A DNA stretch of 39,219 nt from NCBI RefSeq assembly GCF_000515235.1, contig NZ_KI911558.1:1307898-1347116 (forward strand), given 5' to 3'. The notes under the pieces are model-generated. The model was not told the DNA's origin. It was given only the letters and a program-made list of their open reading frames with translations, and did not search any database. The stretch comes from Synechococcus sp. CC9616 (lineage in GTDB: Bacteria > Cyanobacteriota > Cyanobacteriia > PCC-6307 > Cyanobiaceae). Position numbers and translations under genes: made by a program. Of the stretch, positions 5,434-17,060 are shown piece by piece (the first letter of the stretch is position 1; the number at the start of each line of letters is the position of its first letter).

Positions 5434-5955
5434 ATGAACAGCAGTCAGGTCGTCAGTCTTGGAACTCTGGAGGCCGATCTCGGGCTCAGTAGGGTTGATC
5501 TGTTGCTGGTGATCCGCGAACTCGGCATCGAACCGATCAGAAAAGGGATGCGAACCTGGATTCGGCAGGATCAGGTGAGTGTTCTTTATCAGCACCTGGG
5601 TAAAAGCAACCCCCAGGAGCCTTTGATCGCTGAAGTGGTGCCAACGGCAGTCATCGATGACGCCCCCCTTGTGCCACTGAATGCAACCCATGGGCAGGAG
5701 GATGAAGACCTCAGGAAATACTCAAAACTGCGACTCCTACGTGAACGCATTGAAGTGCTTGATCTTCTGCGGGAGAGCGGAGTGGAATTACCAAGCCAGG
5801 AAATTTGCTCTTTGCTCGATCTCAAACGTTTACCTCCCTTAGACAACCTGGAGGATGGCAGGGACGGTTTTCAACGGATGGGGCTGGAGTTTCTGCGTAT
5901 TCGCAAAGATGGCCAGCGCTCAGCATGGAAAGTAAGACGGCAGAAAAACGTTTGA
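5434..5955 (+). CDS. Conserved hypothetical protein with N-terminal HTH-like segment
   Basis: I do not recognise a named family for this 173-residue protein. The first 50 residues (SLGTLEADLGLSRVDLLLVI, then a basic wing-like stretch RKGMRTWIRQDQV) look like a small MerR or excisionase-type helix-turn-helix. Residues about 85-135 are rich in Lys, Arg, Glu and Leu and are probably helical. The C-terminus is basic (SAWKVRRQKN). There is no signal peptide or membrane segment, so it is a likely cytoplasmic DNA-binding protein. It is the first gene of the accessory block and reads in the direction of the UPF0016 gene, 81 bases upstream of it. Confidence 0.6.
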   Translation: MNSSQVVSLGTLEADLGLSRVDLLLVIRELGIEPIRKGMRTWIRQDQVSVLYQHLGKSNPQEPLIAEVVPTAVIDDAPLVPLNATHGQEDEDLRKYSKLRLLRERIEVLDLLRESGVELPSQEICSLLDLKRLPPLDNLEDGRDGFQRMGLEFLRIRKDGQRSAWKVRRQKNV

Positions 5956-6036
5956 ACGCAAATATCCAAGGCATTAACCGATACCGCATCGCCACCGAAA
6001 AACATTTAGTTTTATGAAAATTCTTACTCCACAACC

Positions 6037-6639
6037 GTGGCTGGGTTCACCACTGCGTTTGCCACGGTTGCTATTGCCGGAATCGGCGACAAATCATTTT
6101 TAACAGCTCTTGTTCTGGCAGCTCGTCACAAAGCCCGCTGGGTGTTCACTGGAAGCTTTCTGGCACTCACAACTGGCGCAGCACTGTGGATCGGCCTGGG
6201 CGTATGGATGCAAACACACATCTCGATGGAGATCATCAAGCTTGTATCAGGGGTGACATTTCTGGGGTTTGGAATCAAAGCGTACATGGACGCCTATATC
6301 TCACACAGTGGTCAACCCGGCAAAACAGCTCAGCGCCCTATTTCAGAAGAAGGCGTCACACTCTCTGCCAACGCAGTGATCAGAGGCTCCTTCACAACGA
6401 CGTTTCTGGCGGAATTCGGTGATCGCACACAACTCGCATTGCTTGGGCTGGCAGCCGCTCCAGACATCTCAGCTGAAAGCATCTTTACAGGTGCCGTTGC
6501 CGCAAACATCTTGCTAGCCATTGGGGCCGTCACCTCTGGTAAATGCCTCAGTCAACGAATATGTCAAACAAGGATTGCTCTTATAAGCGGAACTTTATTC
6601 ATAGTTCTTGGCATCAAGATTTTAATGCAAACGAGTTAA
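6037..6639 (+). CDS. UPF0016/GDT1 family cation transporter
   Basis: This 200-residue inner-membrane protein has about six hydrophobic segments in two repeats, the GDT1/TMEM165/MneA design that exchanges Mn2+ or Ca2+ for protons. The signature ExGD[KR][ST] should occur twice. The second copy is intact (EFGDRT, 126-131), but the first reads GIGDKS (15-20), so the metal-binding Glu of that repeat is Gly. The start is GTG 6037: the in-frame stop at 6007 leaves little room and no ATG is available. No clear ribosome site is visible. It converges on the pseudo-ATPase gene with one base between the stops. Confidence 0.85.
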   Translation: MAGFTTAFATVAIAGIGDKSFLTALVLAARHKARWVFTGSFLALTTGAALWIGLGVWMQTHISMEIIKLVSGVTFLGFGIKAYMDAYISHSGQPGKTAQRPISEEGVTLSANAVIRGSFTTTFLAEFGDRTQLALLGLAAAPDISAESIFTGAVAANILLAIGAVTSGKCLSQRICQTRIALISGTLFIVLGIKILMQTS

Positions 6640-6640
6640 A

Positions 6641-8776
6641 TTATTTAATTCTCGAGGCGGAACTGCTGAGCGCAAACAATGTATTCAGCTCAGCAACAAT
6701 CGGCACAAGATTGAACAAAGCGATTGATTGCGCAGGAGTCAGCGCAGACACAAATCCAGCCAAAGACGTTGCACACGTTAGAGCCACAATTGAGGATGAA
6801 TTAATCTTCGTCGCAGATTCGTAACGGCGGCTCAGCAGAATCAGTCGGGACAACCACATCGGATCACCACCAAGGATCACGTCACAAACGGTCTTCGACA
6901 CAAACCCCGTGTCATCATTCGACAAACCAATGGCAACATCAGCACAGGACATCGCAGGAATATCGTCGATCACATCGCCGAGATAGGCCACTGTGGCACC
7001 GTTCCGCTTCAACTGCTTCACCCGCGAACAGCGCAAAAGGGGTTCTTGTGAGCCACTGGCCCTGAGGTCATCGCCAACCACCTCAACATTCACATTCAAA
7101 GATCTGAGCTGATTAAACAGCTCAGAAAAACGATCGCTCAAACTCCAGTCGATCAAAAGACGGCCGAGCACCCCCTCAGAACGACTAAATTCAACAATGT
7201 TCTGGCTTGCGAGACAGCCAGAATCGACAACAGACTGTTCTTTATAAAAGCGAATCGTAATCGCACTTTGATGATCAAATTCAACAACATACGACGCCTG
7301 GGAAAGCTCTCCAGCATTGACCTCTAACGATTGAACAGGCAGTGGTGTCATCTCCACATCCATCAGCACTCCCCAAAAGACAGTGGCTGGATCAGCTTTG
7401 ATGGATAGAGCAATCGAATAAAGAATCTGAATTAAATCATCTTTAGCAAGGGATCGATCGATGAACTGTTCACGACATTCAAAACTACCGAGCTGTTGCA
7501 GTGCATTGATGCTAATAAGCACATTGTCAACCGCAGACAAGTTGGACAGGACTCTTGCATCTGCAATGTGAACTTGATTAAGCGCCATATCTACCAACGC
7601 AGTCTCTGCAGAAGACAACTTGCACTTTTCTGATTCCTTCAAGGGGTTGAATGCCAGAAATGAAATCGCGCGTTCAGTCAGACCATTGACCAGAGACCAC
7701 ATTCCAAAACCCAACTGAAGCGGTGGAGCCAAAGAGCGGTAAAGATTCTCAAGTGGGGCACCAGGTGAGTTCGATGAGGTTTCTGACCATATTGTTTCCT
7801 CGATACTTAACACTGGGGCCTCAGAAAAAGACTGAAGGGCCTCGCAAACAGCCTCTCCCTGCAAGACGTAAGCACCAAAATTAATCTCATCGCCAACCAC
7901 CAATCTCAAAGGCAGCGAAGAGCCATCCAGAAGAGCATTAACGACAAGCAACTCACCCTTAACCAGCCGGGCATGGAGAAAAACGTGTTGACCAATCGTG
8001 ATGCTGTAGAGCATGCCAGGCTCAACCTCTCCCAGAGATAGCTTCGAGCCACAAGGTTCAAGTGAACTCCGATCAACAGGACTGATCAGAACCGCATTTT
8101 TAAGGCGCTCAATGAAATCAACAAATTCCTTGCTGCGTCCCCCTGTGCTTTGGCTGATGGACTGGAGAGCTTCCTTGGAACTGTCCAAAAGCCCATCAAG
8201 CAGGGATTCCCGTGCCAGACCACCGCTAATCAGGGTTGTGGAGAGGGCCACCTCAACAGATGACTGAAGAAGATTTTGCGTTGTCACTACATCTCCAAAC
8301 AACCATTTCCAGATTGAACGTAGAAAATGTCGTAGCAGTGGCAAATTCAGAACAATCGCAGATGTAGCCAATGCCAGGGGCGGGACGACCATCAATGAAT
8401 CAAACGCCAAGACAGAGGCACACAAAGCACCATTCCGAACCGCGTGATGAAAAGACTGACTCTTGACAATATCTACAAGCTGGTTTTCCTGAGCAAGCGC
8501 AGTTTCCAGAGAAGTATCAGAAAATGGGTCAACGAAACAGCGATTTAAGACTGTAAGAAGATGCTCACGGTTTCCCAAAGGGAAACGAATCACAACAGTC
8601 GAAGACACCACATTGATCCGATGGCTGATCAACCAATGGGTGCGGTGAAGAACAGATCCACAATGACGACGCAAGCCAAGTGAATTGGACAAGCCAGGAT
8701 GAAAAATTCTCAGACGGCCATCAATCTCACTTCTGATCACCCATGGAGCGTCTGTGTCTTGAAGACTGGCAGCCAT
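6641..8776 (-). CDS. P-type ATPase-like protein lacking all catalytic motifs (pseudo-ATPase)
   Basis: The 711-residue protein follows the layout of the neighbouring P1B-type ATPase with no frameshift or stop: an N-terminal HMA-like module without CxxC (about 18-80), hydrophobic segments about 116-150, an actuator-like region, more membrane segments, a HAD-like region and two C-terminal helices (about 662-703). Every catalytic site has changed. The TGES position reads DGSS (284-287), DKTGT reads SINAL (422-426), the nucleotide-binding HP is DP (462-463), and GDGIND is GDVIDD (600-605). It should not form the phospho-aspartate. It is the last gene of a minus-strand run, 5 bases after the HMA-LPxxPG gene, so it may be a partner subunit of the active ATPase. 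Confidence 0.82.
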   Translation of the reverse strand: MAASLQDTDAPWVIRSEIDGRLRIFHPGLSNSLGLRRHCGSVLHRTHWLISHRINVVSSTVVIRFPLGNREHLLTVLNRCFVDPFSDTSLETALAQENQLVDIVKSQSFHHAVRNGALCASVLAFDSLMVVPPLALATSAIVLNLPLLRHFLRSIWKWLFGDVVTTQNLLQSSVEVALSTTLISGGLARESLLDGLLDSSKEALQSISQSTGGRSKEFVDFIERLKNAVLISPVDRSSLEPCGSKLSLGEVEPGMLYSITIGQHVFLHARLVKGELLVVNALLDGSSLPLRLVVGDEINFGAYVLQGEAVCEALQSFSEAPVLSIEETIWSETSSNSPGAPLENLYRSLAPPLQLGFGMWSLVNGLTERAISFLAFNPLKESEKCKLSSAETALVDMALNQVHIADARVLSNLSAVDNVLISINALQQLGSFECREQFIDRSLAKDDLIQILYSIALSIKADPATVFWGVLMDVEMTPLPVQSLEVNAGELSQASYVVEFDHQSAITIRFYKEQSVVDSGCLASQNIVEFSRSEGVLGRLLIDWSLSDRFSELFNQLRSLNVNVEVVGDDLRASGSQEPLLRCSRVKQLKRNGATVAYLGDVIDDIPAMSCADVAIGLSNDDTGFVSKTVCDVILGGDPMWLSRLILLSRRYESATKINSSSIVALTCATSLAGFVSALTPAQSIALFNLVPIVAELNTLFALSSSASRIK

Positions 8777-8781
8777 GATGT

Positions 8782-9315
8782 TCAGATTGCCCCGACAAAC
8801 GGTCTCCGAACAGTCAACGCAAGATCAAAGACAAGAGTCGCCAACATCAAAAGCCAAACCCCTGGTGACAATGGCAGGAAGAGACCAATGAAGCCAAGAA
8901 GAAACAAAGCCAGCGATGTTAGGAGTGCCGAGAGAGACAACGACATGGATAGAGCGTTTGCCAAACAACGGGCGGAATCACGCATCCAAGACCTGCTTTG
9001 AGCAGAAACAGGGCGAACCACCTCTGTCGGTGAGAGAGGAGTCTCGGAGACAACAATTCTCTGACGGATCAATTGTTGACGAACACCATCACGCACCATT
9101 CCAGTTAGATCCTGCCCAAGTTGAGGACTTAAATTCCCAATCCTCATGATGATCAAAGACCCAGACAAAGTGTTCAGACGGATCACCCACTCGGATGGGG
9201 GGAAGATCTGTTCAAGATCGCTGCGTAATCGCGTCCAGTCAAGTTGCTGAGCTCGAACGATTCGATATCGCCAACGGCGATTGGTTGAATGCATCAAATT
9301 CAAGGCGGGAGCCAT
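8782..9315 (-). CDS. HMA-like module fused to LPxxPG membrane hairpin (first copy)
   Basis: About 177 residues from the ATG at 9315. I prefer this start to 9369 because it lies 5 bases after the ATPase stop and avoids an overlap. The N-terminal 70 residues show the alternating pattern of an HMA-type domain (RRWRYRIVRAQQ, then LNTLSGSLIIM) without the CxxC metal site. The C-terminus has two hydrophobic segments around GFIGLFLPLSPGVWLLML, resembling PGPGW/DUF454-type membrane proteins. The copy at 13368-13799 shares this architecture. It lies between the active and the degenerate ATPase genes and was probably cotranscribed with both. It may be a membrane chaperone or adaptor; the function is unknown. 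Confidence 0.68.
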   Translation of the reverse strand: MAPALNLMHSTNRRWRYRIVRAQQLDWTRLRSDLEQIFPPSEWVIRLNTLSGSLIIMRIGNLSPQLGQDLTGMVRDGVRQQLIRQRIVVSETPLSPTEVVRPVSAQSRSWMRDSARCLANALSMSLSLSALLTSLALFLLGFIGLFLPLSPGVWLLMLATLVFDLALTVRRPFVGAI

Positions 9316-9320
9316 CGATA

Positions 9321-11864
9321 TCAAGCCACCATCACGTTGTAGAGATTGCTGTCTTTGCAATAGGTCCACTGGAAGCCCTCTGGGTCATGCTCTGCAATCC
9401 AGGAGCTGAAATCATCACGCCGGCGACGGGCCGAAATTTTTTGATAACTCACACCCACCCGCTCAGAGAGCTCCGTCACCTTGAGAGGAAGTGCTGACAC
9501 CTTGCTCTTTTGCACTCCCGCGCCATCAGTTGCAACAGGCTGTAGGGCTGTGACCGATGGTTCAGTGGCAAGTGGTTCAGTGCCCGATGATTCAGGCACT
9601 GCATGCCGCGATGGCAGCTCGCGAGCCTGGAAGCCCAAGGCACGAATGGCATTGCCAGCAGCAACCAAACACGATCCATTGTTCAGGAAAACCGCTGCAA
9701 TCGGGCTGACGGGAAGGAACGTACCGATCACAAGGGCAGACAGGTTGGGGACACCGACAATGGCGATGTTTTGCTTCACCAAACCGAAGGTATGACGAGC
9801 AAGATCTTGAGCCACTATCAGATCGGAGACCCGATCATTTGTGAGAACAATGTCTGCCGTTTCACGAGCAAGATCACTACCAGAGGCGAAGGACACCGAG
9901 ACATCTGCATAGGCGAGCGCCGCGGAGTCGTTGATGCCGTCCCCAACGAACACCACTTTTTTCCCTTGGGCCGTGAAGTGCTGAACGAGTTCCGCCTTTT
10001 GATCAGGAAGGGCGTCTGAATGAACCTCCTCAGGCTTCAATCCAATGTCTTTGGCAACAGCATGAGCAACCGGAGCAATATCACCAGTCAACATGTGAGC
10101 CTCAATTCCACGGCGATGCAACTCCGCAATCATGTCGGGAGTATCTGGACGCACCTGATCAAGGGCATAGTGAATGGAGGCCAGACGACCGTTCACAGAG
10201 AGATAAATAGGGGTTGCAACCCGAAGCTTGGGATCAGCTTCAAACACCGGAATTACGACATTTTCGTCCTCGAGCAACTTGGAATTACCCAGAAGGACCG
10301 TCTGACCATTGACCTGCGCGCAGACACCACGTCCAACCCTGTAATCCCAACTTTCGCAATCGATCACAGACACTTGCTCTTGTTCGGCATAGTCCCGAAT
10401 AGCTTTGGCGATGGGGTGGTTCAGTCCCTGTTCAAGTGAAGTTGAAAGCTGAAGAAGCTCATGGATTCTCTCGTGGGTTGGAGAGGAGATCACAGCTCCA
10501 GAATCATCGAACACCAAAACCTCAACGATCGAGGGATGGCCTTCTGTCAACGTTCCTGTTTTGTCGAAGACAACAACATCGATCGTTTCAAGCTGTTCAA
10601 GAGCACGGCCGCTTCGAATCAGCAGGCCTTGACTGCCTGCTCTTGTGAGGGCGGCCATAATGGCCGTTGGAACAGAGACACGAAGACCCGTTCCAAGGTC
10701 GAACATCAGCAATGAAGCTGCCTGGGCGATGTTGCCTGCACTCAGCAACAGAGAAATGCCTGCCAGAGCCAACGTCGGCATCACGAATCGGTTTGCAATA
10801 TTGGCGGCAAAATTTCCAACTCTTGTATCAAAAACAGGCGCTTCTTCAATCATTTTGGTGATTTGACCCACTCGGGTGTCGTCACCAACGGCAGATGTTT
10901 CTACAACAATGTTGCCCTCAAGAACGATGAATCCAGCCAGAATTTCATCCCCAGGCCCTGAGTGCCTTGGTACTGATTCGCCTGTTAGTTTGACAACATC
11001 AAGTGACGCCTCACCCGACTCAATGACGCCATCAATGGGTATCTTGTCCCCTGGCAAGAAGACAACACGATCACCAGCTGATAAATCAAAACTGGACACG
11101 ATTACCTCACCATCTTCGGTAAGCAAGCGCACATCTGATTGAAGGCTGGAGACTAGATCTGTATTGGAAGAATGAGCAATACGCTGAGTAGCATCACGAA
11201 CAGCCTCACCACCCTCGATCATGGTGATCATCATGGCAGGCCCAAGCAGGAAGCCCTCAAGGCTGTGAAGGAGAACAGCCAGAGCATCTAGGAAATCGAC
11301 ATTGATTTTCTTGTCCTTTTTGAGGCCGTCCCAAGCTCTTTTAAAACTCAAATGAGCCGAGACAATGATGAAGCCCCCAACAGCCAAGGGCGGCAATGCG
11401 AGTGGTCCGGAAAGAATGGCTAATGCCAGTGAGCAAACAGGAAGAACGATGCGCGTTGGAACAAATTTCTCATCATCCTCATCATTTTGTTGAGAGGCCT
11501 CAACGCTTGACAAGGTAGGTTCTACAACGGGAATTAATGGAATATCACCGCTGTTCTGTGGAAGAGAGTTCAACCACTGCAAGGCGTCAACATTGCATTT
11601 TTTCGCAAAGACAACGACATAACAACAAGCCCAACGGTTAAAACGAACAGCTTCAACGTCATCCAGTGAGTTGATATGTCTCTCAAAATTATCTGGATCC
11701 TTTAATCCAGGCGAAACACTAAATCGCAGCCGCTTGGAAGAAGCATGCAAAATTCGATCGATAAAGCGTGGAAGGCTGGGAGGACAAACTTTTTCTCTTG
11801 TACCACCAGATCCATCAATGACATCAAATCCGGTTGTCGCGTCGACTTGAAAGGAAGCAGCCAT
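9321..11864 (-). CDS. P1B-like P-type ATPase with atypical metal motif and C-terminal HTH-like extension
   Basis: This 847-residue membrane pump has all catalytic elements: TGES (294-297), phosphorylated Asp434 in DKTGT, HP (483-484), TGD (593-595) and GDGIND (641-646). The N-terminal 35-100 region is HMA-like but lacks CxxC. Where copper or zinc pumps carry CPC or SPC, this one reads DLGTGLRVSVP (389-399), so the substrate is not predictable from the usual rules. After the last membrane segments comes a Pro/Glu/Thr-rich linker (about 748-790) and then a small domain, LSERVGVSYQKISARRRR, resembling a helix-turn-helix. It follows a DUF5132 gene and precedes the HMA-LPxxPG and pseudo-ATPase genes on the same strand. 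Confidence 0.88.
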   Translation of the reverse strand: MAASFQVDATTGFDVIDGSGGTREKVCPPSLPRFIDRILHASSKRLRFSVSPGLKDPDNFERHINSLDDVEAVRFNRWACCYVVVFAKKCNVDALQWLNSLPQNSGDIPLIPVVEPTLSSVEASQQNDEDDEKFVPTRIVLPVCSLALAILSGPLALPPLAVGGFIIVSAHLSFKRAWDGLKKDKKINVDFLDALAVLLHSLEGFLLGPAMMITMIEGGEAVRDATQRIAHSSNTDLVSSLQSDVRLLTEDGEVIVSSFDLSAGDRVVFLPGDKIPIDGVIESGEASLDVVKLTGESVPRHSGPGDEILAGFIVLEGNIVVETSAVGDDTRVGQITKMIEEAPVFDTRVGNFAANIANRFVMPTLALAGISLLLSAGNIAQAASLLMFDLGTGLRVSVPTAIMAALTRAGSQGLLIRSGRALEQLETIDVVVFDKTGTLTEGHPSIVEVLVFDDSGAVISSPTHERIHELLQLSTSLEQGLNHPIAKAIRDYAEQEQVSVIDCESWDYRVGRGVCAQVNGQTVLLGNSKLLEDENVVIPVFEADPKLRVATPIYLSVNGRLASIHYALDQVRPDTPDMIAELHRRGIEAHMLTGDIAPVAHAVAKDIGLKPEEVHSDALPDQKAELVQHFTAQGKKVVFVGDGINDSAALAYADVSVSFASGSDLARETADIVLTNDRVSDLIVAQDLARHTFGLVKQNIAIVGVPNLSALVIGTFLPVSPIAAVFLNNGSCLVAAGNAIRALGFQARELPSRHAVPESSGTEPLATEPSVTALQPVATDGAGVQKSKVSALPLKVTELSERVGVSYQKISARRRRDDFSSWIAEHDPEGFQWTYCKDSNLYNVMVA

Positions 11865-11896
11865 GAGTAGGAAATGGTGGGATTTTTAGAAAAGAA

Positions 11897-12247
11897 TTAC
11901 TCGACAGTCACATCAGTAATAGTTGCTGATTTTGCAGTTTTAGGAGAGCCATTATTGGCCACCTCCTGATCTGCAATCTCCTCAGAGGATGATTCCGACT
12001 TAGCTTCTTCAACAAGATCAACAAAAGATTCAGCAACTTCTGCTGCGCTTTTGGCAACGCCACGCGCTACCTTGCCAGCAGCACCAGCTGCAACAATGCC
12101 AACTTTGACGCCATTTTTGGCCATGCTGCGACCAGCTTGCCCCATCGAATCACCCAATTCCTGATTCCCCATCTTTCGAACCACTGGTGCCATGGCCATG
12201 AGGGCAGCTCCAGCCCCAAATGCGACAACCATCTCAAATTCGAACAT
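11897..12247 (-). CDS. DUF5132-like small membrane-associated protein (first copy)
   Basis: About 116 residues from the ATG at 12247. I prefer it to the TTG at 12277 because MFEFEMVVAFGAGAAL matches the start MFELEYLIAFGIGAGL of the copy at 13803-14114. A hydrophobic Gly/Ala-rich N-terminal segment leads to a glycine-zipper-like middle (GIVAAGAAGKVARGVAK) and an acidic tail (VAESFVDLVEEAK). This matches the general form of DUF5132 proteins. No catalytic motif is seen, so a scaffold or membrane-lining role is possible. It is the first gene of the minus-strand ATPase run, 32 bases upstream of the ATPase, and divergent from the ArsA-like gene. Confidence 0.7.
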   Translation of the reverse strand: MFEFEMVVAFGAGAALMAMAPVVRKMGNQELGDSMGQAGRSMAKNGVKVGIVAAGAAGKVARGVAKSAAEVAESFVDLVEEAKSESSSEEIADQEVANNGSPKTAKSATITDVTVE

Positions 12248-12298
12248 GGGTGGAGGGGGGATTAATCCTTTAGACAACTTTACTCTGATTTATGTGAT

Positions 12299-13393
12299 TT
12301 GATATGTGGATTCCCCAAAAGCACCAATCTGTCGACAGCCGTGATCCGATTTATCAGCAGTGACCGGTGTCGGACACTACATTCCGTGATCAATGAGCTG
12401 ATTCAAGCAGACATTATCAGCTCAAAATCAATGCTCCTCGATACAAGAGGTGATTTTGCCGATTTAGAAACCGTTGACCAGGAGTATGAATGGATACAAT
12501 TCGATCACAATCAGGTTCTTGAAGATCTTTGGAATGAATTAAATCCACATGCAAAAGAATGGTGGGATCTCCTCGATATCAGCGACAAGCAATCTGCAGA
12601 ACTTCCATCTTTACCTGGCATAGAAGATATCACTCGACTAATTTTTATTTGTCGCCACCTAAATATGGAAAACAGTCATCAAGACATCGTCGTGATTTTG
12701 CCACACCCACATCACGCGATACGACTTCTAGGCATGGCACAACAAGGGCCTTTTTTGATCGAGAACCTGCTCGAACCTCTACTTAATTGGTGGGATAACA
12801 CCAGGAAGTCGTTATCAGCAGTAGAAACACTTCTAAGGATCAAATTGCCATCATCTCAGCAATTACGATTATCTGCTCAATGGAGACACTATTTTGAATA
12901 TCTTCAAACCTTGTGCAGTGACAGAATGCTCCATCGCCTTTATTTAATTCTTGATGGAGCTGATCAAAGCAGATTGAACTTAATGCGGCAACTCAGTTTG
13001 TGCGGCATGAATGCAGTCACCCCAAGCGGATTGATCATGAGTGATCTTGATTCACAGGTCATGGTTCAAATCAGCAAGGAATTAGATCCTTCCATGATCG
13101 AACTTGTATCGAGCGACCAACTCAGCAAGGCTAAAATAGAGACAATAGAGAGCAAATACAAGGCTGATCTTTTCTTAGATGCTCCTCATCAATCAATTAC
13201 TATTTACCTTCCAGGCGTTAACAAAGCCGAACTCGTCATTAAACAATCCGGTACCACCATCTTTCTATTTTATTTGGGCCAAAAACGTGTAATAGAACTA
13301 CCTGAAACTTTAAACGCACTAACTTGCCAAAAAGGACAAATTAAACTTGGCTGGCTAACGCTTCGTTTTATTCAACCGGGACAGAATGCTTAG
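12299..13393 (+). CDS. ArsA/Get3-like protein without Walker A, with HSP20-like C-terminal domain
   Basis: The 364-residue product has the plan of cyanobacterial ArsA-family proteins. Residues about 100-165 (ELPSLPGIEDITRLI, then IRLLGM and FLIENLL) match the ArsA segment around DTAPTGHTLRLL. Residues about 289-358 look like the ArsA HSP20-type domain (ITIYLPGVNKAELVIKQSG, ending LGWLTLRF). The P-loop GKGGVGKTT is absent: the N-terminus reads CGFPKSTNLST. The DTAPTGH box has become ILPHPHH, losing the Asp. The reading frame is intact, so it is probably a functional pseudo-ATPase and not a decaying gene. The start TTG 12299 is uncertain. Its 3' end overlaps the convergent HMA-LPxxPG gene by 26 bases. 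Confidence 0.72.
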   Translation: MICGFPKSTNLSTAVIRFISSDRCRTLHSVINELIQADIISSKSMLLDTRGDFADLETVDQEYEWIQFDHNQVLEDLWNELNPHAKEWWDLLDISDKQSAELPSLPGIEDITRLIFICRHLNMENSHQDIVVILPHPHHAIRLLGMAQQGPFLIENLLEPLLNWWDNTRKSLSAVETLLRIKLPSSQQLRLSAQWRHYFEYLQTLCSDRMLHRLYLILDGADQSRLNLMRQLSLCGMNAVTPSGLIMSDLDSQVMVQISKELDPSMIELVSSDQLSKAKIETIESKYKADLFLDAPHQSITIYLPGVNKAELVIKQSGTTIFLFYLGQKRVIELPETLNALTCQKGQIKLGWLTLRFIQPGQNA

Positions 13394-13799
13394 ATCCTGG
13401 TGGTCGCCAACCCAAAGACCAGGCAATAAGAAAAAAAGGTGTTCCAGGCATGATTGGCAAAATCCATCCAAGGATCGCGAAAATAATCATCGTTTGTGCC
13501 GTAACATGACAAAGCTGACGATTGAACAGTTCTTGACGTGTTGGTGGTAGTTGAGGACCGAAAGAAACAGTATTTACTAAAAAATGATCAAACCAGCCTT
13601 GAAGGTCTATAGCATTGAGTTTTACAGAACAATCACTAGAGGTTATCAACACGCCGGAATAATCCAATGCAAATCTGAAAATGTAAGTTGGAAAGCAATA
13701 CTGAAAAGAACTCTGCATGCATTGCTGAGATCTTTTAGAAAGTTTCTGATTAAACTTAAATCTTACGCGTCCCGGCAGAGCGTGCCGAATTTCAACCAA
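13368..13799 (-). CDS. HMA-like module fused to LPxxPG membrane hairpin (second copy)
   Basis: The 143-residue protein begins VEIRHALPGRVRFKF, the typical opening of HMA_2-type modules, followed by the strand-rich pattern VLITSSDCSVKLN and no CxxC. The C-terminal part is a hydrophobic hairpin, AILGWILPIMPGTPFFLIAW, of PGPGW/DUF454 character. It parallels the protein at 8782-9315 in architecture but not closely in sequence. The start is TTG 13799, 3 bases after the DUF5132 stop, so the pair is probably translationally coupled. As in the other half of the locus, a DUF5132 gene precedes an HMA-containing gene. Confidence 0.68.
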   Translation of the reverse strand: MVEIRHALPGRVRFKFNQKLSKRSQQCMQSSFQYCFPTYIFRFALDYSGVLITSSDCSVKLNAIDLQGWFDHFLVNTVSFGPQLPPTRQELFNRQLCHVTAQTMIIFAILGWILPIMPGTPFFLIAWSLGWRPPGSKHSVPVE

Positions 13800-13802
13800 G
13801 GT

Positions 13803-14114
13803 TTAGGATTTGCTGGATTTAGCTGATTTAACAGTCGCTTTTGGCTCGGCGAGATCAGCCTTAGCTTCGGCGAGAATATCGCCAAAACTTTCTCCAACTT
13901 CACTCAAACCAGACTTCATACCAGAGAAAAGGCCAGAAAATTTCGAGCCAATGACCAAACCCACTTTTAAACTTTGCTTTGTCAGCCCTCGTCCAGCGCC
14001 GGAAATGGTTTTGGTGACGCCACTTTCACGACCCGCTACGGAGGCTGCCACTGGTGTTAGAGCAACAAGACCAGCTCCGATACCAAAAGCAATAAGGTAC
14101 TCAAGCTCAAACAT
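13803..14114 (-). CDS. DUF5132-like small membrane-associated protein (second copy)
   Basis: This 103-residue protein has a hydrophobic N-terminal segment (MFELEYLIAFGIGAGLVAL), a Gly/Ser/Lys-rich middle and an acidic helical stretch, VGESFGDILAEAKADLAE, that matches the conserved end of DUF5132 proteins. A Lys/Ser-rich tail follows. It is a clear relative of the protein at 11897-12247. It starts the HMA-LPxxPG pair and is separated from the DUF1345 gene upstream by 102 bases holding an inverted repeat. The function is unknown; a structural or adaptor role at the membrane is a guess. Confidence 0.72.
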   Translation of the reverse strand: MFELEYLIAFGIGAGLVALTPVAASVAGRESGVTKTISGAGRGLTKQSLKVGLVIGSKFSGLFSGMKSGLSEVGESFGDILAEAKADLAEPKATVKSAKSSKS

Positions 14115-14146
14115 GGTCTTAAAACAGATAAACTCAATCTAGGGAG

Positions 14147-14183
14147 CTTTTGTGCTTTTGTGAAGTGTTGATGATCACAAAAG
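14147..14183. repeat. Tandem and inverted CTTTTGTG repeats between DUF1345 and DUF5132 genes
   Basis: CTTTTGTG occurs at 14147-14154 and again at 14155-14162. The second copy, extended to CTTTTGTGA, is followed after 11 bases by its perfect inverse TCACAAAAG (14175-14183). This gives a 9-pair stem in RNA from either strand. It sits downstream of the DUF1345 stop and upstream of the DUF5132 start on the minus strand. It could be an operator, an mRNA processing site or a partial terminator. Confidence 0.55.
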
Positions 14184-14216
14184 TGGTGCCTGCATCTCAG
14201 CAGGACAGTTGCCGAC

Positions 14217-14879
14217 TCAACTGACCTGGGTCACGAGGGAAAGAATGATCGAAAGAACCGTCGAAGCAAACAAAAAAGCTGCAATGCAGTGAATAATCAC
14301 GACGCGGCGAATTGAAGAATCTTCAACACTGCAATCAGTCATGGAATAAGTAAGGCCGATTGAGTAAGCAACATAGAGAAAATCGCTGAAGCTTGGCTCT
14401 GAACCCTGAAAAACGAAGGCCTGTTGAGCTTCGTTCTCTTCAAGCGCACGGGGATTCTGCTCAAAATAACTCTTTGCGTAGTAAAGAGCGAAACCGTTGT
14501 GCAATTGCAACCATGCAAGAAACAGTGAAATAAATGTCAAGAAAATCTGAACATAGTCCGGCAAAATGTTTTTCTTATCATGTAGATCATTGATGCAAAA
14601 ACAAAGTAGTCCCACGCTCATAAAAACAAGCGCCACAGTGCGTAAGGCAACATAGGATTCAACCGATTGCCAACGCTCAAAGACTTGACGTGTTTCATGC
14701 ATGGAAAGCGTCCAAGTTTTTCGATACAGCGTGACCAGATCCCACACCAGTGCCATGGTGATAGAAATAGTGAAGGCCTCTTTAAAAGTCACGAGTTGAA
14801 TCAAGATCAACGTGATGACCAATCCAACCATCGAGGACCGGATCAGACGATATCGATCTGAAAGGAAGCGGGGATGCAT
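14217..14879 (-). CDS. DUF1345 family membrane protein
   Basis: The 220-residue protein has about five hydrophobic segments and the DUF1345 hallmarks LHNGFALYYAKSYFE (about 127-141), then DFLYVAYSIGLTYSMTDCSV and the Arg-Arg plus His-rich stretch RRVVIIHCIAAFLFAS. The biochemical role of this family is not established. Its ATG lies 3 bases after the stop of the antiporter-like gene, so the two are probably translationally coupled and may act together at the cytoplasmic membrane. Confidence 0.8.
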   Translation of the reverse strand: MHPRFLSDRYRLIRSSMVGLVITLILIQLVTFKEAFTISITMALVWDLVTLYRKTWTLSMHETRQVFERWQSVESYVALRTVALVFMSVGLLCFCINDLHDKKNILPDYVQIFLTFISLFLAWLQLHNGFALYYAKSYFEQNPRALEENEAQQAFVFQGSEPSFSDFLYVAYSIGLTYSMTDCSVEDSSIRRVVIIHCIAAFLFASTVLSIILSLVTQVS

Positions 14880-14882
14880 CTT

Positions 14883-16364
14883 TTACATTTGAATATCTGA
14901 ACCTTGAACAGTCTGAGCTGTAATTCGGTTGTAAAATCTGGGTATCATTACTGATTTAACCAGCATTGAAATAATAACTGTTCCACACACTGAATTGGCC
15001 ATAAGATGATATGCCTGATAAGGAACAATTTCAGACATGCTTATCTCAAATATTTCCTCCAGTAAAATAGGTGCTTGTACTACTAAAGCCATAGAGACGG
15101 CACCCTTTGGACTCCAAGATGCCAAGATTTTTTTCTCGTCAATTGCGATTGTCTCTCCTCGAAGAAAAAGCCAAACACAGACTGGACGAATCGCAATAAC
15201 TCCAAGCCAGACATAAAGAGCAATTGGTAAATCAACGAAAAATGACTTCGCATTAAGGCCGAGACCGATCGCGAAAAATAGAATCGCTTCACAGGCAATA
15301 TTGAGCGACTCCAATTCCTCACTAAGGAATTTAATTTCATCTTCAGTGGATGAACTTCTGTACGAAATAGAGGTGACAACCCCCATAACAAGTGCACAAA
15401 GGTATCCCCCATGGCGCAGGGACAGATCTGAAAACACGTAGCCAAGAATCGTAAATCCAAATGCAACAAGCACAAGTTGAGGTTTGGACGTCACAAAATG
15501 ACGAATGACAAGATTCAGCAGATAGCCAAGGATCACACCACACACAATGCCTAGAAAAATGCCTTTGAAGATGTCCTGAACCAGAACACCTTGATTCATC
15601 GTTGAATAACCCGGATTAATTTGCAGCCAAAACAGAATAAGCAGCTCAGCTACAGCAACTGAAATCGCTGCCGAAATTGATGTTTCTACTTTGAAAATGT
15701 TGATAAAAATGGCCTGAAATTTTTTAACCTTTCTTGCTACAAACGAAAACGAGTTCCAATCATTGACTGAGAGAGAATAAATAATGACGACAGTGATTAG
15801 AGTGAGAACACCTTCATCAACTCCCTCTGCATAGCCTAGCTTCTGGAAGACTCCCAGCCCAAATCTTATATACATTAACCAAAACAACATACTTAATGCC
15901 GTGCCAAATAGGGCTAACTGCATGGAGCTGAATAACAAATTACTTCTCTTCAAGAGCAACCGATCTGATGTCAAACCGCTAAAAAACAACAGCACACAAA
16001 GAGCAATGACATGAACCTGCTCCAGGGGAATAGTATTAAACGTAAAATTTGCAATATTGATGCACAATCCAAGTAAAAACAAGAAGATTGAACCCGGTAT
16101 ACTTAGCTTAGCCCCAAACTTATCGCATAACGTGCTGACAATCAGGAGAAGCGCAAAAGCAATAAGTGTCGTTTGAAATGATATCTCTAGAGAAGAAGTT
16201 GCTTCTGACGAATTTGTGATGGTACTGGACGCGTGACGCTCTGCTGCAAAAACAATCCAGGAAGGTACACCGAACACAATCACATCAACTCTCAACTTGA
16301 TTCTGTACACAGAGTCACAATTCAATTGACATAGGTGAGCGAATGCTGACAACTTGCCGGTCAC
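14883..16364 (-). CDS. CPA1-type cation/proton antiporter-like protein, ion-binding ND motif missing
   Basis: The 493-residue protein has about twelve hydrophobic segments and the overall NhaP/CPA1 order: FFSGLTSD (127-134), a TDP-like site reading SVND (199-202), an ESxxND-like site reading ETSISA (227-232), and SPKGAVSMAL (418-427) for the usual WGPRGAVSLAL. The Asp of the first site remains. The Asn-Asp pair that binds the ion in CPA1 exchangers is Ser-Ala here, and Arg in the last motif is Lys. Simple Na+/H+ exchange is therefore doubtful; a channel, sensor or different ion is possible. The start is GTG 16364, divergent from the carbonic anhydrase gene 45 bases away. Confidence 0.78.
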   Translation of the reverse strand: MTGKLSAFAHLCQLNCDSVYRIKLRVDVIVFGVPSWIVFAAERHASSTITNSSEATSSLEISFQTTLIAFALLLIVSTLCDKFGAKLSIPGSIFLFLLGLCINIANFTFNTIPLEQVHVIALCVLLFFSGLTSDRLLLKRSNLLFSSMQLALFGTALSMLFWLMYIRFGLGVFQKLGYAEGVDEGVLTLITVVIIYSLSVNDWNSFSFVARKVKKFQAIFINIFKVETSISAAISVAVAELLILFWLQINPGYSTMNQGVLVQDIFKGIFLGIVCGVILGYLLNLVIRHFVTSKPQLVLVAFGFTILGYVFSDLSLRHGGYLCALVMGVVTSISYRSSSTEDEIKFLSEELESLNIACEAILFFAIGLGLNAKSFFVDLPIALYVWLGVIAIRPVCVWLFLRGETIAIDEKKILASWSPKGAVSMALVVQAPILLEEIFEISMSEIVPYQAYHLMANSVCGTVIISMLVKSVMIPRFYNRITAQTVQGSDIQM

Positions 16365-16409
16365 TCATTGCCAGTTACCAGTGATATAACCCAGTAAAAG
16401 GATCAGGTC

Positions 16410-17060
16410 ATGGGCACGTCATCAAGTAGCCCCTATATCGATTCAGGGGGGCAACAAACTACCCCACATGACATTGTCAACGAGCTGAAAAGTGGCCTGC
16501 AGCGTTTTCTTGATGGTCAATCGGCCCATCCCCATGCAACCGAGGCACGCCGTCATCAACTTGCTGGCGGACAACATCCCCAGGTTGCCGTCCTGGCCTG
16601 TTCCGATTCTCGCGTTCCAGTTGAGGTGATTTTTGATGCCGGATTCGGGGATTTGTTTGTGATCCGTAATGCAGGAAACACCAACACCTTTGGTTCTGCA
16701 GGCTCGATTGAATATGCCGTTGCAGATCTGGGAATCTGTGTCCTTCTGGTCATGAGTCATCAGGGATGTGGCGCCGTCAAGGCCGCTTATCTGACAGGTC
16801 AGGACTTTTCTCCCTCGTTGAGCGAATTGGTAAACGACATCAAATCAGGATTAAACAATCACGGCTTCAGTACCGACGATCACAAGACCTATGAACAAGC
16901 TTGTATTGCCCATTCGAGAATCACAGCGGAGGCACTTGTTCAGGACAGCGACGTCATCCGTGATGCCGTCAGCAACAAAACACTTCTCGTTCAACCAGCC
17001 TTTCTACACATCGATCCTCTCTCGATCACCTGGCTTGAGCCGCTTTACGGCAAGGACTGA
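16410..17060 (+). CDS. Beta-class carbonic anhydrase
   Basis: This 216-residue enzyme interconverts CO2 and bicarbonate. The zinc ligands Cys64 (in CSDSRVP, with Asp66 and Arg68), His117 and Cys120 (SHQGCGAV) are all present, so it should be active. There is no signal peptide, which points to the cytoplasm or an internal membrane face. Alpha-cyanobacterial carboxysomes normally use CsoSCA, so this is probably a non-carboxysomal enzyme. It is divergent from the antiporter-like gene, a context that suggests pH or bicarbonate balance. Its 3' end overlaps the convergent queA by 16 bases. Confidence 0.93.

Follow-up and report, generated by a model that had tools for sequence, protein, structure and literature searches.

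A co-inherited low-GC island of Synechococcus sp. CC9616 that combines an active-type P-type ATPase with a degenerate homologue, HMA-like proteins and a Get3d relative lacking the P-loop

KdpFABC is an established case of a P-type ATPase that depends on small and channel-like subunits, and P-type ATPases linked to HMA_2/CoBaHMA domains have been noted before. Proteins with this domain (PF19991) were reportedly treated by Gaschignard et al. in 2024, and the domain is said to be defined by conserved basic residues and the lack of CxxC. Two further protein families have to be considered. Get3d binds tail-anchored proteins (PMC10248533). The GDT1/UPF0016 family, characterized by one or two copies of the motif ExGD(K/R)(S/T) (PMC7380456), includes Mnx, the manganese exporter of Synechocystis (PMC11649195 and PMC7380456). 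Relatives of several of these proteins are encoded side by side in the window, a stretch of 39,219 nucleotides on contig NZ_KI911558.1 (positions 1,307,898 to 1,347,116) of Synechococcus sp. CC9616, whose genome comprises 2.65 Mb. At positions 5434-17060 of the window, a 12-gene island contains an active-type P-type ATPase, a second, predicted dead P-type ATPase (pseudo-ATPase), two proteins composed of an HMA-like domain and a C-terminal membrane hairpin (HMA-hairpin 1 and 2), a relative of Get3d without P-loop (pseudo-Get3d) and further membrane proteins (Table 1). The reading favoured here, to which a probability of roughly 0.45 is assigned, is that these genes are inherited as a single module, which would encode a multi-subunit (heteromeric) P-type pump.

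The genes of the window were read as open frames and then analyzed by Pfam searches, alignments with homologues and a GC profile. A preliminary description of this DNA had proposed nine genes in a mirrored layout. All nine are present with open frames where it had placed them, and the reported repetition of accessory types was confirmed, as a DUF5132-HMA pair was found twice, with both copies in the same orientation. The mirror arrangement was rejected since both halves are read from the minus strand. Eight of the nine genes lie on this strand and the pseudo-Get3d gene (formerly pseudo-ArsA) alone on the plus strand; the actual layout is a partial tandem of the halves DUF5132b/HMA-hairpin 2 and DUF5132a/ATPase/HMA-hairpin 1/pseudo-ATPase. 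The nine-gene boundary had to be abandoned as well. An antiporter gene inside it occurs in 7 of 20 loci, a carbonic anhydrase gene outside it in 18 of 20. The real unit is the 12-gene low-GC island, which adds to the nine a small gene for a protein of 173 amino acids (aa), a GDT1 antiporter gene and the carbonic anhydrase gene. From about position 6000 to 17000, the GC content is 42-53% compared to 59-64% in the flanks (1.5-kb windows).

The distribution of the island among close relatives is that of a block. An ATPase sharing 76% identity or more was detected in 6 of the 33 other genomes of the genus that were searched. In those six, the cluster lies between cysK and queA at the same place and in the same order; one of them lacks the pseudo-ATPase and the antiporter. 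The cysK-queA place was inspected in 12 of the 27 genomes of the genus without cluster. The gap between the match ends is 24-94 bp in 11 of these, while it measures 918 bp in the twelfth (L125:7806-8447, genome G009), where a lone DUF1345 gene lies inside. Other island genes were absent from this place in 12/12 genomes, the gene of the 173-aa protein included. The empty site in genomes devoid of the cluster shows that the segment 5434-17060 is gained or lost as one block. The same core was found in records that bear the names Synechococcus, Vulcanococcus and Cyanobium, some of which point to lakes as the source, and the gene order is conserved across marine and lake-type loci.

For the gene counts given in Table 1, 20 ATPase-bearing loci were evaluated and a partner was scored within 9 kb of the ATPase; some loci stop at contig edges. 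Here, and likewise in the co-occurrence and tree comparisons and the motif counts, a genome represented by more than one locus (for example L024/L038, L026/L042, L029/L069 and L035/L071) was counted once, whereas L023 and L030, which represent one mixed bin, were both retained. Contigs L023, L025 and L030 are binned as Rhodopirellula sp. MED697 or Deltaproteobacteria UBA6967 and carry the cluster with ATPase identities of 76-98%. A Synechococcus-type queA lies on L025 and L030, odhB also on L030. By these sequences, the three are probably misbinned picocyanobacterial contigs.

Table 1. Features of the island in the window. Loci: number of the 20 ATPase-bearing loci with the gene. Starts given in brackets are those of the preliminary description.
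Feature	Position	Strand	Loci	Evidence and remarks
Small 173-aa protein (label tatHTH)	5434..5955	+	18	within 9 kb of the ATPase; regulator-like judging by its sequence only
GDT1/UPF0016 cation-proton antiporter	6037..6639	+	8	Pfam GDT1 5.1e-32
Pseudo-ATPase with N-terminal HMA-like domain	6641..8776	-	19	sub-threshold Pfam E1-E2_ATPase and HMA_2
HMA-hairpin 1 (HMA-like domain, C-terminal LPxxPG membrane hairpin)	8782..9315 (9369)	-	18	alignments
Active-type P-type ATPase without CPC or CxxC	9321..11864	-		membrane-helix motif FDLGTGLRVSVP; Pfam E1-E2_ATPase 4.8e-29, Hydrolase 1.2e-27
DUF5132 paralogue a, one hydrophobic segment	11897..12247 (12277)	-	18	37-43% identity to DUF5132b
Divergent intergenic region, 93 bp, between corrected starts	12248..12340	.		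candidate two-way promoter
Pseudo-Get3d (ArsA-HSP20 relative without P-loop)	12341..13393 (12299)	+	19	Pfam ArsA_HSP20 1.1e-8, sub-threshold ArsA_ATPase
HMA-hairpin 2 (HMA-like domain, C-terminal LPxxPG membrane hairpin)	13368..13799	-	20	26 bp overlap with 3' end of pseudo-Get3d
DUF5132 protein b	13803..14114	-	20	Pfam DUF5132 borderline
DUF1345 membrane protein, 220 aa	14217..14879	-	19	Pfam 3.5e-30; two copies in five loci
CPA1-like antiporter homologue without a conserved Asp, start uncertain	14883..16364	-	7	Pfam Na_H_Exchanger 1.7e-16
Beta-carbonic anhydrase	16410..17060	+	18	Pfam Pro_CA 1.5e-29; outside the nine-gene range

The co-inheritance was quantified for four of the proteins, the ATPase (E 1e-100), HMA-hairpin 2, the pseudo-ATPase and pseudo-Get3d, in 300 genomes sampled from the family. 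Matches were obtained in 27 (ATPase), 28 (HMA-hairpin 2), 25 (pseudo-ATPase) and 28 (pseudo-Get3d) genomes. HMA-hairpin 2 was present in 26, the pseudo-ATPase in 25 and pseudo-Get3d in 26 of the 27 genomes with ATPase, corresponding to Fisher p values of 4.9e-34, 1.8e-34 and 4.9e-34, which are overstated because the genomes are related. The exceptions are few. G203 possesses the ATPase and the pseudo-ATPase without HMA-hairpin 2 and pseudo-Get3d, G285 the latter two without ATPase, and G087 pseudo-Get3d alone; in G147 the hairpin match is weak and interrupted. The pseudo-ATPases of G134 and G158 were below the blast level, and a divergent copy was found there by profile. The trees of eight families have 8-16 splits in common per pair compared to at most four in label shuffles, and the pairwise tree distances between families correlate at 0.78-0.95. 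Lack of co-occurrence or independent inheritance had been named in the preliminary description as the observation that would argue against a common system. Neither was indicated by the 300 genomes and the congruent trees.

Like the P1B-type ATPases CopA and ZntA, the active-type ATPase has A, P and N domains with DKTGT, TGE and GDGxND. DKTG, TGE[SAT] and GDGxND were each detected in 27/27 sequences and the HP motif in 26 of the 27. Unlike these pumps, it has no CPC-type motif (CPC, SPC, CPH or TPC in 0/27) and no CxxC anywhere (0/27), and a dead paralogue is encoded alongside. At the position of the CPC-bearing helix, the cluster ATPases exhibit FDLGTGLRVS (LDLGTGLRVS in G134 and G158). Distant cyanobacterial relatives and the copy on a Deinococcus plasmid have LDxx(T/S)GxR there, with K for R in one sequence (L049), while CPC, CPH or SPC occupies that helix in pumps of other classes that these searches recovered. 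The last membrane helix of the ATPase contains NNGS, a further difference from the P1B pumps. Since DxGTGxR stands in place of the metal-binding CPC, the ATPase is not a canonical P1B heavy-metal pump. In most copies, the C-terminus of the ATPase (window 9321-9485) reads LSxRxGxxxQxIxARRRRxDFxxWxxxxDPxG and looks like a small helix-turn-helix (HTH)-like module.

These motifs bear on a conventional explanation, by which the island would encode a standard P1B exporter of heavy metals whose accessory genes have worn out. The best solved relatives of the ATPase by sequence are indeed Cu and Zn P1B pumps, and a relative from Gloeothece carries the annotation "heavy metal translocating P-type ATPase". 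The metal motifs are, however, lacking in all 27 sequences, and the accessories are not worn out because they are under purifying selection, which makes such an exporter very unlikely. The heavy-metal annotation of the DxxTGxR clade, encountered in at least one public record, is probably wrong for the substrate.

The pseudo-ATPase is aligned with the active ATPase over 644 columns (hhalign 99.8%). Applying the patterns used for the active enzyme, DKTG, TGE[SAT], GDGxND and the HP motif were each found in 0/30 copies; stray TGE or HPVA strings occur at other positions in a few of them. An AlphaFold2 (AF2) model yielded the zinc pump ZntA (4umw) as best Foldseek match (E 4.2e-23, TM 0.56/0.65), and dN/dS values of 0.13-0.31 were determined in seven pairs. 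A quick tree with 51 rows unites the family's 20 dead copies in one group with a support of 100. By these data, the protein is a full-length P1B-like homologue that is predicted to be catalytically dead and is under purifying selection. Additional dead P-type ATPases were noticed elsewhere. Two are arranged in tandem at L054:12631-17233 (G214), distant from the cluster, and single extras occur in L057 and L070. A second, divergent dead ATPase lies near the carbonic anhydrase and DUF5132b genes in L062 (4347-6473) and L063 (14589-16811); in the quick tree, these two group with those of G134 and G158.

It is hardly conceivable that the island consists of decaying, horizontally acquired pseudogenes. 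Its low GC content in comparison to the genome and the lost catalytic motifs would be in line with decay, but the frames are open, dN/dS does not exceed 0.46 for any part in any pair tested, and the loci of 16 lake-type or other family members have an overall GC content of 57-68%; that of two further loci (G134, G158) is 41-44%. Decay was rejected on account of the dN/dS values and the long conservation. The preliminary description was thus right in treating the degenerate partners as maintained genes, since motif loss goes along with low dN/dS, and the same applies to the antiporter.

The HMA-like modules without CxxC, which had been proposed for four proteins, were substantiated by the alignments. 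RxR is present within the first 90 residues in 27/27, 29/30, 26/26 and 25/25 sequences of the four families, RxN in 27/27, 30/30, 24/26 and 0/25, and CxxC anywhere in 0/27, 4/30, 0/26 and 0/25. Both hairpin proteins have a hydrophobic segment at the C-terminal end. In HMA-hairpin 2, H6, R11, R13 and PGTPFF are invariant in 12 sequences. Its AF2 model (pLDDT 78.6) has two N-terminal strands and shows strand-strand-helix-strand-strand-helix followed by a long helix, and the model of the pseudo-ATPase opens much like it. A fold search with HMA-hairpin 2 returned copper chaperones at Z 5.3-5.9, level with reverse transcriptase and LuxS folds; the tied matches are compatible with the fold class and do not support the family. 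With the CoBaHMA/HMA_2 proteins, the island proteins share basic residues in place of CxxC and the tie to P-type ATPases and a lipid kinase, and the model may be HMA-like. They differ in their HMA_2 scores, which amounted to 15 and 13 bits (cut-off 30) for two window proteins; for the remaining two, no HMA_2 match was obtained at E 0.1. Partners in distant loci exceed the cut-off.

These domains raise the possibility of a system for lipid handling or sensing, in which they would be CoBaHMA-type readers of anionic lipids and the ATPase would move lipid or be gated by it. The strand and helix order of the model is consistent with this idea, as are the conserved basic residues of RxR/RxN with CxxC mostly gone and an HMA_2-tailed diacylglycerol kinase about 1.6 kb from related genes on a Gloeothece plasmid. 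On the other hand, among solved structures P1B ion pumps are the closest by sequence, carbonic anhydrase and GDT1 suggest ions, and the island of the window contains no recognisable lipid gene. A lipid system is therefore regarded as unlikely.

Pseudo-Get3d shares with Get3d the C-terminal alpha-crystallin (HSP20) domain and an ArsA-like body. Its profile matched Nostoc All4481 (3igf/8egk, E 5.6e-11) and Arabidopsis At1g26090 (8elf, E 1.4e-5), in both cases with the C-terminal part; the match to Nostoc All4481, the Get3d structure, covers the alpha-crystallin part. Unlike Get3d, it has no P-loop, as neither of two Walker A patterns was found in any of 24 sequences (0/24). Because the P-loop is missing throughout, no ATPase cycle would be expected. 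The dN/dS values are 0.12-0.46 (seven pairs).

Partial loss of functional residues was also observed in the two transporters. The antiporter has Ala in 9/9 sequences where 4/4 usable paralogues of the same genome have Asp (a fifth paralogue row, in the wrong frame, was left out). We take the replaced Asp (ND/DD motif) to be the ion-binding residue of CPA1 Na+/H+ antiporters. A solved relative of this protein was not found at E 0.01. The GDT1 protein belongs to the GDT1/UPF0016 family with one intact ExGDRT motif and departs from it by the loss of the Glu of the first motif in 7/7 marine island copies (ExGDKS to GxGDKS), the second motif being intact in all seven; in a GDT1 copy near the cluster of L060 both motifs are intact. 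By contrast with the degenerate members, the carbonic anhydrase has both CxDxR and HxxC intact in 22/22 sequences, and its tree distances track those of the ATPase (r 0.94). Judging from the residues inspected, the ATPase and the carbonic anhydrase are the parts with the full set of catalytic motifs checked.

The presence of these genes suggests two further explanations. The locus might be a homeostasis island, the genes of which are passed on together because they serve one condition (salt, pH, Mn or Ca, inorganic carbon), while the products would act separately and without a complex. This would agree with the variation of antiporter and GDT1 between loci and with the carbonic anhydrase relatives and Na_H_Exchanger proteins found alone elsewhere. 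It is rather unlikely, however, as the ATPase, the pseudo-ATPase, pseudo-Get3d and the HMA-hairpin protein co-occur near perfectly, the dead members have no enzymatic role, and the HMA-like domain is repeated in four proteins. A mineral system akin to the setting of calcyanin (intracellular Ca-carbonate) would account for the HMA-like domains, the carbonic anhydrase and the antiporter of Ca/Mn type, and CoBaHMA domains have been linked to calcyanin. Nothing in this analysis, in which no search for calcyanin was made, ties the island to it; this explanation is highly improbable.

Outside the family, 38 hits in 32 of 145 genomes were obtained by a DUF5132 search among other cyanobacteria, and 20 neighbourhoods were examined. 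Ten of them (L096, L097, L099, L101-L107) carry an ATPase of the island family, which in one case is split over two frames and in another is a fragment where the contig ends. The other ten are devoid of it; two of these (L108, L109) have another kind of P-type ATPase. A 921-aa ATPase-like row in L104 was considered as a dead partner and rejected, since it is a P2-like cation ATPase with a Cation_ATPase_C domain, and it was not counted. The neighbourhoods on one Gloeothece and one Deinococcus plasmid were also read. The plasmid of Gloeothece PCC 7822 encodes ATPase, DUF1345, DUF5132 and a dead ATPase in a row. The latter, a protein of 522 aa, is a shortened P-type ATPase plus HMA_2 that has no DKTGT and no profile match for the A domain or the nucleotide domain. 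It may or may not have an origin independent of the dead ATPases of the island family. In the quick tree, all dead rows are on one side of a branch with a support of 93, but the Gloeothece row is a very long branch, and a long-branch warning applies. About 1.6 kb beyond the gene row (L115:14941-16443), a YegS-type diacylglycerol kinase with a C-terminal HMA_2 domain is encoded.

Returning to the heteromeric pump, it is conceivable that the dead ATPase pairs with the active ATPase as a regulatory or structural subunit. The HMA-like domains, which have RxR/RxN for CxxC, may bind anionic lipid headgroups or one another rather than metal, and together with the small membrane proteins they would keep the parts together at one membrane. 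Pseudo-Get3d might be a dedicated, non-hydrolysing holder of the two C-terminally anchored hairpin proteins before their insertion, a role that is suggested because Get3d binds tail-anchored proteins (PMC10248533). The cargo is probably a hard cation with a link to pH or inorganic carbon; the polar motif DxGTGxR in the CPC helix, GDT1 and the carbonic anhydrase together point to Ca, Mn, Mg or K as hard cation or to the balance of pH and inorganic carbon, and away from Cu and Zn. Kdp-type subunits were not detected among the Pfam matches of the island and, unlike in KdpFABC, the partner would be a second, dead ATPase. A role of the DUF1345 protein as Kdp-like channel subunit would be speculation, for Pfam gives DUF1345 and nothing channel-like.

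Several observations weigh against the proposed pump. GDT1 (8/20 loci) and the antiporter (7/20) are variable, and AG-670-F04 (L038) has the cluster without pseudo-ATPase and antiporter, so these parts were dispensable at least once. Arrangement and content deviate in G229, G250, G134 and G158. Some genomes harbour further copies of the pseudo-ATPase at a distance from the cluster, and carbonic anhydrase relatives also occur without it (133 of 300 genomes matched at E 1e-20). The co-occurrence test takes related genomes as independent, and the shared splits also mirror species history. The confidence of the AF2 model of the pseudo-ATPase is modest (pLDDT 64.9, pTM 0.47). Finally, co-inheritance, motif states and selection were observed, while the complex, the chaperone role and the cargo are inferred.

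The remaining features concern the boundaries of the genes and their smaller members. Three starts were moved inward by comparison with homologues, to 9315 (HMA-hairpin 1), 12247 (DUF5132a) and 12341 (pseudo-Get3d), and the original ones were probably too far upstream; with the corrected starts, the apparent overlap of the ATPase and HMA-hairpin 1 genes disappears. The divergent region between DUF5132a and pseudo-Get3d might act as a promoter in both directions. A promoter scan of this region revealed fewer sites than in shuffles (7 versus a mean of 12.9), and a terminator scan gave no excess either (12 versus 12.5 in shuffles). DUF5132a has a conserved MFE(F/L)E start and no Pfam match. DUF5132b scored 24.7 bits in the protein and 25.2 bits in the genome search at a Pfam cut-off of 25. 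Next to it, a 302-aa protein without Pfam match is encoded at L053:4431-5339 and L056:14440-15348, and at a similar place in L060 a 281-aa protein with a sub-threshold glycine-zipper match. The 173-aa protein has no convincing Pfam match.

Each recognised part of the island belongs to a known superfamily. To our knowledge, neither a set with hairpins, a dead ATPase and pseudo-Get3d nor a pump in which a dead version of the ATPase forms the second subunit has been described. A search of the open literature, which covers few subscription journals, revealed no paper on these genes as a set, and a term look-up for island parts gave no clear match in two gene-content papers on marine picocyanobacteria. 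One of the two mentions a P-type ATPase family common to clade VIII and subcluster 5.2 (PMC7522525), which may or may not be the island ATPase.

Tentatively, the island may represent a new class of heteromeric P-type pump, made up of a working ATPase with a non-metal site, an old family of dead ATPases, HMA-like lipid-binding domains and a non-hydrolysing Get3. In such a pump, retired enzymes (ATPase, Get3, antiporter and half of GDT1) would serve as regulatory or structural subunits that couple cation movement to inorganic carbon; this wider proposal is doubtful. Heterodimeric ABC transporters in which one site is dead illustrate how informative pairs of an active and a dead partner can be. 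Few pumps have been studied as thoroughly as the P-type ATPases, and here a conserved dead family of them is under selection in abundant picocyanobacteria, with duplicates in some genomes. Moreover, the location of pseudo-Get3d beside C-terminally anchored proteins may permit a direct test of a Get3d that acts without ATP.

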